Assembly (NCBI RefSeq): GCF_001606025.1
Contig: NZ_CP014945.1
Coordinates: 62,001-126,000, forward strand
Origin: Psychrobacter alimentarius
Lineage (GTDB): Bacteria > Pseudomonadota > Gammaproteobacteria > Pseudomonadales > Moraxellaceae
Direction: 5' to 3'
Length of the DNA: 64,000 nucleotides
The translations under genes were made by a program, and so were the position numbers. The notes under the pieces were generated by a model. That model made no database searches and was not told where the DNA came from. It saw only the letters and a program-made list of their open reading frames with translations. Below are positions 1,461 through 52,683 of the stretch, piece by piece; the stretch's first letter is position 1; every line of letters begins with the position of its first letter.

Positions 1461-3521
1461 ATGATCGAATTTAAAGACGTTGGTGTTCGCCGTGATGGTC
1501 GTGAATTGTTTGCAGGTGCAAGCTTCCAGCTACATCCGGGCCACAAAGTTGGCTTAACGGGCAATAACGGCACAGGCAAATCTACGTTGTTTGCTTTATT
1601 GTTGACACAGATGGGCAAGGGCGATACCGAAGTCACACTGGATAGGGGCGAAGTCAGCATTCCTGATAGCTGGCATGTAGCACACATGGCGCAAGAAGTG
1701 GGTGCCAGCGCTCAGACCGCGATTGACTATGTACTCAGTGGTGATGAGCAGTGGTATGAGATTAATGCCGCTTTGAATGATTTGAGTAGCGTGAGTGATG
1801 AGCAGATTGGCGTATTGCATCAGCAATTTGATGAGATTGATGGCTATCGCACACCAACCAAGGCGGCGCAAATCATGGCAGGTCTTGGTTTTAATACCAG
1901 CCAGCATGAGCTACCCGTAGAAGGGTTTTCGGGAGGCTGGCGCATGCGCTTAAACCTTGCCAAAACCCTGATGAGCCGAGCCGATTTGATGTTGCTCGAT
2001 GAGCCAACCAACCATTTGGATTTGGATGCGATCTTGTGGCTTGAGACGTGGATTAACGCGTACACAGGGTTGGTCATTGTTATCTCGCATGACCAAGCAT
2101 TCTTGGATGCGACCGTTGGTCATATCTTGCATGTCGAACAACAAAAAATCACCCTTTATACGGGTAATTATCAGCAGTTTATTCGTACGCGTCATGAGCG
2201 TATGGCGCAGCAGCAGCAAGCGTTTGAAAAGCAGCAAGCGACCAAAGCACATTTGGATGACTTTATTCGTCGCTTCCGTGCTAAGGCCAGTAAAGCCAAA
2301 CAAGCCCAAAGTCGTATCAAACAGCTTGAGCGTATGGCAGAGTTGTCACCCATGATGGCAGACAATCCTTTTTCTTTCCGATTTTATGAGCCTGCAAATA
2401 TGAGCTCGCCACTGATTGAGCTGACACAGGCAGACATCGGTTATAGCGACACACCGCTATTGCACAACGCCAATGTGCAAGTCACGCCCGATACGCGTCT
2501 TGGTTTGCTTGGGATGAATGGCGCGGGTAAATCCACCTTAATCAAAGCCTTGGTGGGTGAGCTTGGGGTGTTATCAGGCACATACCGTGCATCTGACACT
2601 CTCAAACTTGGTTACTTTAACCAGCATCAAATGGACGTGCTTGATGCTGCCGCAACGCCGCTACAAATGATGCGCCGCTTGGCAGGCAAGACCTCGGATG
2701 CCGAACTGCGTTCTTTCTTGGGCAGTTTTGATTTTCGCGGTGATCGCATTGATACCCCAAGTGAGTTATTTTCTGGTGGCGAACGCGCGCGCCTGACTTT
2801 GGCTTTGATTGTCTGGCAACGTCCAAACGTCCTTGTTCTCGATGAGCCAACCAACCATTTAGATTTACAAATGCGTCAGGCCTTGACCATTGCATTGCAA
2901 GGCTTCCAAGGAGCAGTGGTACTGGTGTCGCATGACCGTGAGCTGATCGCCAATGTCTGTGACGAGTTGTTTTTAGTCCATGATGGTCAAATTGATGAGT
3001 TCGAGGGCGATATCAGTGACTATGGTAAATGGCTTGCTGAAAAGCGTAAGCAAGAAAACGCGCAAGACAAAACTGCCAGCAAGAAAAAGAACAAAAAAGA
3101 CAGCAAAAAATTTGTTTCACGTGAAACAACAAATGCAAAATCTGTTCATCAAGCGGCGTCTGGCTCAGAGACCAAATCAGGTTCAGCTTCGAGTAGCACA
3201 GCAGCGCACAAGAAAGTTTCTACTCAACCGACGCTAAGCAAAGAAGAACAGCGTAAATTGGCCGCAGAACAACGCAAACTAACTGCGCCTGTACGCCGTG
3301 ATATTGAGAATACAGAAAAAACATTGGCTAAAATTAATGAAAAACTGAATGCGCTTGAAGACAAGCTGGCTGATACCAGTCTCTATGAAGAAAGTCGCAA
3401 AGCTGATTTGATGGTTTTATTGAATGAGCAGACGGCATTACAGCAGCAGCACAGTGACAATGAAGAGCAGCTATTGCAGTCAATGACGACGTTAGAAGAG
3501 ATGGAAGCAAATTTTGAGTAA
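1461..3521 (+). CDS. yheS: ABC-F family ATPase, YheS type
   Basis: Soluble ABC-F protein of 686 residues with two ATPase domains and no membrane segments. Members of this family bind ribosomes and modulate translation. Domain 1 has Walker A GNNGTGKS (34-41), signature FSGGW (156-160) and Walker B LMLLDEPTNHLD (176-187). Domain 2 has GMNGAGKS, FSGGER and LVLDEPTNHLD. A lysine/serine-rich linker (about 540-590) leads to a C-terminal coiled coil. The N-terminus resembles YheS rather than Uup or EttA. The linker-coding DNA contains a perfect parS sequence at 3113-3128. Start ATG follows GAGATT. The symbol is by similarity to E. coli YheS; the precise role is not established here. Confidence 0.85.
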   Translation: MIEFKDVGVRRDGRELFAGASFQLHPGHKVGLTGNNGTGKSTLFALLLTQMGKGDTEVTLDRGEVSIPDSWHVAHMAQEVGASAQTAIDYVLSGDEQWYEINAALNDLSSVSDEQIGVLHQQFDEIDGYRTPTKAAQIMAGLGFNTSQHELPVEGFSGGWRMRLNLAKTLMSRADLMLLDEPTNHLDLDAILWLETWINAYTGLVIVISHDQAFLDATVGHILHVEQQKITLYTGNYQQFIRTRHERMAQQQQAFEKQQATKAHLDDFIRRFRAKASKAKQAQSRIKQLERMAELSPMMADNPFSFRFYEPANMSSPLIELTQADIGYSDTPLLHNANVQVTPDTRLGLLGMNGAGKSTLIKALVGELGVLSGTYRASDTLKLGYFNQHQMDVLDAAATPLQMMRRLAGKTSDAELRSFLGSFDFRGDRIDTPSELFSGGERARLTLALIVWQRPNVLVLDEPTNHLDLQMRQALTIALQGFQGAVVLVSHDRELIANVCDELFLVHDGQIDEFEGDISDYGKWLAEKRKQENAQDKTASKKKNKKDSKKFVSRETTNAKSVHQAASGSETKSGSASSSTAAHKKVSTQPTLSKEEQRKLAAEQRKLTAPVRRDIENTEKTLAKINEKLNALEDKLADTSLYEESRKADLMVLLNEQTALQQQHSDNEEQLLQSMTTLEEMEANFE
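3113..3128. promoter_or_regulatory. parS: parS site, perfect 16-bp palindrome
   Basis: The sequence TGTTTCACGTGAAACA is the canonical ParB-binding parS site used in chromosome segregation. It lies inside the ABC-F gene, where it encodes part of the flexible linker (V-S-R-E-T). parS sites usually cluster around the replication origin. That this site is bound by ParB is inference from the exact match. Confidence 0.85.
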
Positions 3522-51073: not shown

Positions 51074-52069
51074 ATGTCTAACAATCAATTACCAACCACC
51101 CAACACGCCGTACTCATACGTGAATTTGGCGAACCAGAAGTCATGAAATATCAGGACAGCGTTGCCATTCCTGAGCTACAAGACAATCAAGTACTGGTCA
51201 AAATTGCTTATGCTGGTATCAATCCAGTTGATTACAAAACCCGTCAAGGAAAAGGCTGGGGCGCCGATAATATTCGTAAAGAAAAATTTGATAATGATCA
51301 GCCCGCTATTTTAGGCTTTGACATGGCAGGGGAAGTGGTCAAAAGCAATAGCGATCAGTTTAGTGAAGGTGAGCAAGTCGCTGCACTGTCATTCAATGGC
51401 GGATGTTATGCTGAGTATGTGGCCATCGATGCCAAGCTGTTGGCCAAAGTACCAACCTCTGTCACGCTAGAGCAAGCAGGCGCGTTGCCTTGTATCGGGC
51501 AAACGGCACTACAATTTGTAGAGTTTGCCGATATAAAAGCAGGCGAGCATGTGGTCATTAATGCACCCGCAGGCGGCGTTGGTCACTTGTTGATTCAACT
51601 ATTAGCAGAAAAAATTACCAAAGAGAATATCAAAGTCACTGTCATTTGCTCACCAGAAAAATATGCCAAACTTGAGCAATTAATAGATACCAGCAAGCTG
51701 ACAGGCTGGATCGATTATACCAAGGATGAAGAGCTTCCTGATCTACAAGCCGATATGCTATTGGACTTGGTTGGCGGTGAAGCAGGGGTTCGCGCACTGA
51801 GTGTGCTCAGATCTGGCGCACGAGTGAACGTATTACCCACCATTTGGGTTGATAAGCTCAAAGAAGCGGGTCAGCAGAAAAACTTAGATGTGGCGGGTTA
51901 TAAAGCACAGCGTAGTGGAGAAGACATGGCGCGCGTTTTACAGCTGGTCGCGGATGACAAGTTGACCTTAATCATTCAGCAAGTGTATCCATTGTCAGAA
52001 GTCGTTACGGCCCATCATGCGCTTCAAAAAGGTGATGCATTTGGTAAAATAGTTTTAAAAGTTGATTAG
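51074..52069 (+). CDS. NADP-dependent quinone-oxidoreductase-like enzyme (MDR superfamily)
   Basis: 331-residue medium-chain dehydrogenase/reductase without the zinc-binding cysteines, hence quinone-reductase type. An N-terminal GroES-like domain (KIAYAGINPVDYKTRQGKG; ILGFDMAGEVV) precedes the Rossmann fold, in which the nucleotide loop is APAGGVGHLLIQL. Such enzymes reduce quinones or enones with NADPH. The ATG has AAGGATAT upstream. Its last four bases overlap the convergent alkB-like gene. Confidence 0.85.
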   Translation: MSNNQLPTTQHAVLIREFGEPEVMKYQDSVAIPELQDNQVLVKIAYAGINPVDYKTRQGKGWGADNIRKEKFDNDQPAILGFDMAGEVVKSNSDQFSEGEQVAALSFNGGCYAEYVAIDAKLLAKVPTSVTLEQAGALPCIGQTALQFVEFADIKAGEHVVINAPAGGVGHLLIQLLAEKITKENIKVTVICSPEKYAKLEQLIDTSKLTGWIDYTKDEELPDLQADMLLDLVGGEAGVRALSVLRSGARVNVLPTIWVDKLKEAGQQKNLDVAGYKAQRSGEDMARVLQLVADDKLTLIIQQVYPLSEVVTAHHALQKGDAFGKIVLKVD

Positions 52070-52683
52070 ACATTATGCATTCGTCGAAACGTTAAACTAA
52101 TACGCCCCGTTGCGACGGTTTTCGTTTTAGTAATGGTGTGCTTCCAAAATGTTTGGGTATCACCATGCATGACGATGAGCTGACCGGACTCAAGACCAAG
52201 CGTTACTTTGTCTTGAGTTTTTTTATGCTTAAAGACAAATTTGCGCGTGGCTCCTAACGACAGTGAGGCAATGATTGGCTGATCACCCAATTCTTTTTCG
52301 TCGTCAGCATGATAGCCCATACCGTCAGTACCTGACGGATAATAATTGAGTAGGCATGAGTTAAAATCTGCCGTAATTCCTATGTTACTTAATAGTTGTT
52401 CAATACGTTGTTTCACGTGGAACACTGAATCTGACCATGGAATGGCTTGTCGTTCGTGTCCTGAATAATGATACATCACATCTTCTGCACCCATCCAAAC
52501 AATCTGACGAGTCGTCACATGGGTTTTGCCAAACAGCGTCACGATATCAGACTGCCAAGGCAGCCCTGCTAATAAGGTGTCATACAGCGTACGAGAATCG
52601 TCAATGACAATACCCAAGTCATTGACTTGGCCGTCATAGGGCAATAGATTGTCTGTGGGCGCTGGCGCGAAGAGGTCGGTCAT
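52066..52683 (-). CDS. AlkB-like 2-oxoglutarate/Fe(II)-dependent dioxygenase
   Basis: 205-residue enzyme of the AlkB group (closest to AlkB2/ALKBH2-like), which removes alkyl lesions from bases by oxidation. Iron ligands H125, D127 (GYHADDE) and H182 (FWKHTI) and the 2-oxoglutarate arginines R194 and R200 (GRISLTFRRM) are all present, as is NYYPSGTDGMG. No Ada or other adaptive-response gene is adjacent. Its coding sequence contains a parS match at 52409-52424. Confidence 0.88.
   Translation of the reverse strand: MTDLFAPAPTDNLLPYDGQVNDLGIVIDDSRTLYDTLLAGLPWQSDIVTLFGKTHVTTRQIVWMGAEDVMYHYSGHERQAIPWSDSVFHVKQRIEQLLSNIGITADFNSCLLNYYPSGTDGMGYHADDEKELGDQPIIASLSLGATRKFVFKHKKTQDKVTLGLESGQLIVMHGDTQTFWKHTITKTKTVATGRISLTFRRMHNV
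52409..52424. promoter_or_regulatory. parS: Second parS site
   Basis: TGTTTCACGTGGAACA on the plus strand; the minus strand reads TGTTCCACGTGAAACA, which fits the TGTTNCACGTGAAACA consensus at every fixed position. It lies in the alkB-like coding sequence (F-H-V-K-Q). Binding by ParB is inferred from the match. Confidence 0.75.

Follow-up and report, generated by a model that had tools for sequence, protein, structure and literature searches.

Does a parS-type palindrome that lies inside a protein gene answer to the chromosome or to the gene, and which of the two sets the amino acids that it encodes? The question is raised by a 16-bp palindrome, TGTTTCACGTGAAACA (3113..3128, no strand assigned), in the 64,000-nucleotide stretch of the Psychrobacter alimentarius genome analyzed here (the window; C1:62001-126000).

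The palindrome and its setting near the origin

The TTTC form of the parS consensus is a 16-bp palindrome, and the site matches it at 16 of 16 positions, confirming the perfect parS reported by the first-pass annotation. The same annotation held that an exact match exceeds chance in 64 kb, and a first-order Markov model of the window bears this out, with 3.4e-5 exact copies expected per 64 kb and 0.0018 per genome. A looser count is by itself no proof of a site: at up to three mismatches to the 16-mer we found two matches in the window against a shuffle mean of 0.56, and two or more occurred in 9 of 100 shuffles. The 16 bases touch codons 551-556 of a 686-aa open reading frame (1461..3521, + strand), the first of them being the last base of a Phe codon. 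In the frame of the gene they give xxT-GTT-TCA-CGT-GAA-ACA (V-S-R-E-T), directly after a lysine-rich run (KKKNKKDSKKF-VSRET) in the C-terminal linker.

The product of this frame contains two ABC_tran stretches. Its best NCBIfam match was PRK10636.1, which we take to be the YheS model, with a score of 701.2 (curated cut-off, 917); on the general ABC-F model it scored 408.6, above the cut-off of 380. Because only the general cut-off was reached, 'YheS-type' is a safe name for this ABC-F ATPase (yheS below for short), and the product falls short of a formal YheS equivalog. Thus, where the first-pass annotation had placed the site in the lysine-rich linker of YheS, the lysine-rich run and the ABC-F family stand, and the strict YheS identity does not. 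Variation and indels among the sequences suggest that the linker may be flexible. The 72 best of the gene's named relatives were titled Psychrobacter, and the nearest among the matches listed was Psychrobacter sp. JB385 (96%).

We then placed the site on the genome (3.35 Mb, two contigs). Contig C1 (3,332,539 bp) begins at dnaA, which was matched at C1:121-1524, and the site lies 65 kb from it. Searching with GTTYCAYRTGRAAC gave 15 genome matches, all 15 between -22 and +114 kb of dnaA (~136 kb; from C1:3,310,692, 22 kb before the contig end, to C1:114,410), with C1 presumed circular for distances across its end; the same pattern read backwards gave none. At up to two mismatches, the 16-mer itself gave 14 sites, all within the same stretch round dnaA, and its backwards control gave 1. 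The window is therefore origin-proximal, as the annotation had suggested, and the yheS site belongs to a cluster of 15 palindromes round dnaA. In 13 Psychrobacter genomes with dnaA and the gene on one contig (our own included), yheS starts 36-106 kb from dnaA.

Sites of this type lie on either side of dnaA, some within genes and some in intergenic DNA. Judged on ORFs of at least 100 codons, 8 of the 15 palindromes lie inside ORFs taken for genes: recF (two sites), a 198-aa gene, yheS, an AlkB-like gene, and genes of 522, 237 and 485 aa. From the appearance of their proteins we take the last three to be rsmB, riboflavin synthase and mnmE, respectively, and recF was presumed in the same way. All 8 intragenic palindromes are read in one of two open frames, as F-H-x-K/E-Q or V-S-x-E-T; the remaining frame, which would read a TGA stop within the palindrome, is used by none of the 8.

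Some arrangements within the cluster recur. Two sites whose starts are 27 bp apart (C1:3,325,370 and 3,325,397; L041) lie outside the listed ORFs, and this spacing is repeated in at least G022 (3395906/3395933) and G058 (3054087/3054114). A trio at C1:47,555, 51,105 and 52,401, two of whose sites flank a dnaJ-like gene, has similarly spaced counterparts in at least G022, G029, G044, G058 and G038; G038 keeps the trio, and its yheS site is absent.

The window holds a second parS-type site that was absent from the first-pass annotation, TGTTTCACGTGGAACA (52409..52424, no strand assigned; C1:114409), with one mismatch. It lies in a 2OG-Fe(II) oxygenase (AlkB-like) gene (52066..52683, - strand) whose product falls well under the NCBIfam AlkB cut-off; the minus-strand reading is F-H-V-K-Q, from the coding-strand form TGTTCCACGTGAAACA (FHVKQ). 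Among the best 30 of 57 genomes with this gene, our own included, the site was an exact 16-mer in 17, had one mismatch in 8, two in 1 and three or more in 4, so that 26 of 30 genes carried it with at most two mismatches. On this comparison it is probably a more labile member of the cluster.

With regard to the proteins that such sites would need, the genome encodes one ParB (164 bits, above cut-off) at C1:1,235,754 (L073 1153-2301). The ORF directly before parB is ParA-like, a call made by reading its sequence. SMC is also encoded, above its cut-off once pieces in one frame were summed, and therefore the parts of a ParABS-SMC system are present. Aligned to Caulobacter ParB (6t1f), the encoded ParB has Arg at 173 and Gly at 201, and Leu and Gln at the other two specificity positions (numbers are chain position +10, counted by hand on the alignment). 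Excerpts of a study of ParB and Noc specificity describe R173 and G201 as absolutely conserved in ParB and altered in Noc, and the remaining two positions as variable among ParBs (PMC7383237). The first-pass annotation might have led one to expect parAB near the origin as well; instead parAB lies ~1.24 Mb from dnaA, although the parS-type sites cluster round dnaA. This distance was roughly 0.7-1.9 Mb in 21 of 22 relatives, those with a ParB match (one has a second, weaker ParB); the remaining relative, G109, had no match to ParB or to DnaA.

Selection on the DNA or on the peptide

If the peptide mattered to the protein, its codons should be free to vary, so we compared palindrome and residues across 160 distinct coding sequences (212 loci, including a few cut or broken genes). 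Palindromic codons were present in 73 of the 74 distinct genes that encode VSRET, against ~1% expected from the codon usage of the same genes, in a count uncorrected for relatedness. Conversely, VSRET was absent from 78 of 79 distinct palindrome-free genes. The exception in both counts, L113, comes from a metagenome-assembled contig and is one synonymous change from the palindrome; it was the only case (1 of 74) of the pattern that the first-pass annotation had named as contrary evidence, namely a palindrome lost while its residues are kept. A loose pattern also matched VAKDS, in L060. Seven palindrome-bearing distinct genes encode other residues: VSHET (GTTTCACATGAAAC) in four, VPRET in two and VPRGT in one. 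The VPRGT gene is that of Moraxella boevrei (L146), whose perfect palindrome, TGTTCCACGTGGAACA, has two residues changed with the symmetry kept.

We also counted synonymous changes on a tree of this one gene, made without the linker from 74 clade members (at least 80% identity, near-full length; the broken genes L062 and L072 dropped). The five VSRET codons underwent 13 synonymous changes, compared with 60.9 expected for codons of the same residues elsewhere in the gene, and as few as 13 arose in 2 of 200,000 resamples. This stretch was the third lowest of 262 five-codon windows, and the two lower ones overlap each other at the gene start. The Thr codon, which ends on the outermost position of the palindrome, took ten of the 13 changes. 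On the same tree, the first four codons of the site took 3 changes in total, and the mean over 528 degenerate columns was 11.9 per column.

Because one palindromic codon set recurs in 73 of 74 genes, 78 of 79 palindrome-free genes lack VSRET, and 13 changes stand against 60.9 expected, we read the sequences as selection holding the DNA, not the peptide, with the DNA setting the five amino acids. This upholds the suggestion of the first-pass annotation that the DNA site may dictate the residues.

Distribution in Psychrobacter and the Moraxellaceae

To see how widely the site is kept, we searched the linker-holding stretch of the gene in 60 Psychrobacter genomes, our own included, drawn from a larger group. 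A parS-type palindrome was present in yheS in 52 of 60 (exact in 24, core-14 in 27, degenerate in 1). The 8 genomes without it comprised six of a ~70%-identity group with an alanine-rich linker, L071 and L060. L071 has a divergent partial gene, with a degenerate site, TGTTCCACATGAAACA, at most 1.5 kb after it, and L060 has TGTTTCACATCAAACA. The site is therefore dispensable at the yheS position, as expected with many other sites in the genome.

Among named loci (the best 80 of 124, which overlap the 60 genomes, so that the counts are not additive), the site was exact in 30, core-14 in 27, degenerate in 7 and missing from 16: ten of the ~70% Psychrobacter group, five Moraxella and L113. Psychrobacter sp. 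WY6 (L129) has a frameshifted gene and keeps the exact site out of frame; we give this no weight, because apparently the same genome (G059) is rated 85% complete and a sequencing error could explain the frameshift. A Moraxella-like yheS gene that includes a parS-type site also occurs on a contig titled Streptomyces cinereus JCM 3040 (L147, BMPS01000009.1), and our guess is that this record is mislabelled or contaminated.

For the family as a whole, 81 Moraxellaceae genomes were drawn. The gene was matched in 75 of them at E 1e-150, and all 62 of these outside Psychrobacter were read with flanks of up to 1.5 kb. The site lay inside the gene in 5 of the 62, which are all five genomes of the Moraxella-like genus g7 with a gene match; the sixth g7 genome, G080, had no gene match at E 1e-150. 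In another 10 of 62 it lay past the gene, starting 13-64 bases from the first base of the stop codon (g9, 4/4; g11, 4/4, one of them a split gene, L225; g8, 1/1; g15, 1/11), and three other g15 genomes had a site 870-893 bases on. The remaining 44 of 62, including 11/11 of g10, had no site in the gene or in flanks of up to 1.5 kb. Where 15 sites are spread across ~136 kb, finding one anywhere within 4.6 kb is by itself unremarkable. Its repeated placement just past the stop codon is remarkable.

A gene tree of 81 rows, from which the cut pieces L195, L200, L201 and L225 were left out, needs three changes of the 'linker' site label, and the node at which the ~70% Psychrobacter group joins the others is weakly supported (81/48). 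Either a single origin with losses or two origins may account for the linker site of Psychrobacter and g7. As a tentative proposal, in which we place somewhat less than even confidence, the yheS locus could be a position-conserved centromere element of the Moraxellaceae, its site moving between the linker (Psychrobacter, g7) and the post-stop stretch (g8, g9, g11 and one g15), and held by a chromosome-organizing need some way from the origin, not by the gene. If so, a site conserved in position would write protein sequence whenever it falls inside the gene.

Proposed role and comparison with known systems

Taken together, the site at 3113..3128 is very probably a working chromosomal parS centromere element. 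It has the consensus 16-bp palindrome (16/16), clustering round oriC/dnaA (15/15), a cognate ParB of parS specificity with a ParA-like neighbour, and selection on the DNA beyond coding need. These sequence features, conservation and synonymous constraint among them, were observed together with the encoded SMC; binding, clamp loading, segregation and the role of SMC are taken from established ParABS biology. On that model ParB, encoded elsewhere, would load at the site as a CTP-dependent clamp and slide to flanking DNA, and the bound site would join the other 14 origin-region sites in a partition complex. ParA would then move this complex, from which SMC would be loaded. Because the palindrome lies inside a protein gene, selection on the DNA would at the same time fix five residues, VSRET, in a linker that tolerates change; the frame used is one that keeps clear of the palindrome's TGA stop.

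We weighed this reading against three others. VSRET might be a conserved ABC-F linker motif with the palindrome as a by-product of its codons, and in the clade each of its residues is almost fixed (96-100%), with variation at several nearby linker positions, chiefly on the C-terminal side. A motif held for its residues would, however, hardly use one codon combination in 73 of 74 genes where ~1% is expected, nor be missing from all but one of 79 palindrome-free genes, the one being a single synonymous change away; parS-type sequence is moreover kept with VSHET, VPRET and VPRGT. We consider this account extremely unlikely. It is likewise exceedingly improbable that the site is a chance occurrence, or a relic that arose once and persists merely for want of time. 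Its absence from some lineages and the three label changes on the gene tree would suit such a relic, but not the 3 synonymous changes in its first four codons against a mean of 11.9 per degenerate column, nor the 0.0018 exact copies expected per genome.

Other proteins can recognize palindromes centred on CACGTG, and the one in yheS could belong to another DNA-binding protein or be an mRNA element of the gene. Against this, all 15 copies cluster round dnaA, on either side of it and both inside and outside genes, a pattern that fits parS and not a gene-specific element, and the genome encodes a parS-type ParB. A binder other than ParB thus seems very unlikely, and a working parS remains our preferred reading.

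Read in this way, the locus would be a clean case from nature in which a DNA-binding site, and not the function of the protein, fixes amino acids in most members of a genus. Tests are built in: palindromes of this kind occur with other residues, and where the gene lacks the palindrome the residues are gone too. It may also give a comparative handle on why parS sites keep particular places relative to the origin. In the open-licence literature, no title among the matches listed concerned a parS site in yheS of Psychrobacter.

Several known systems resemble this one. According to the excerpts consulted, Bacillus subtilis likewise has several 16-bp sites scattered round the origin and uses ParB as SMC loader; its sites spread over ~0.75 Mb, and most bacteria have theirs within 5-40 kb, so the ~136 kb seen here is intermediate (PMC8357415). 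Noc-binding sites (NBS) are a related palindrome read by the same protein family, going by portions of the Noc study. We rejected an NBS here: parB_part has a single match in the genome, and the encoded ParB has R and G, unlike the Noc residues Q173 and R201 (PMC7383237).

An intragenic parS is itself an ordinary, known kind of site. In the sections of the P. aeruginosa PAO1 study that we draw on (PMC4368675), parS1-10 are 16-bp palindromes, several of them close to oriC, as here; most likely nine of these ten lie inside coding sequences, and the authors mutated intragenic sites with the coding sequence unaltered. The perfect PAO1 sites parS2/parS3 given there are of the TTCC form, TGTTCCACGTGGAACA, which also occurs among relatives of the Psychrobacter gene (Moraxella boevrei). 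Unlike the PAO1 set as described in those sections, the P. alimentarius set comprises 15 sites over ~136 kb, is dominated by the TTTC form and has parAB ~1.24 Mb from dnaA. What sets the yheS site apart, judging from the sequence comparisons, is how unusually clearly DNA can be seen to dictate protein sequence: the conservation of a site within a gene across the genus, and what it does to the encoded protein, were measured here and go beyond the PAO1 case as those sections present it.
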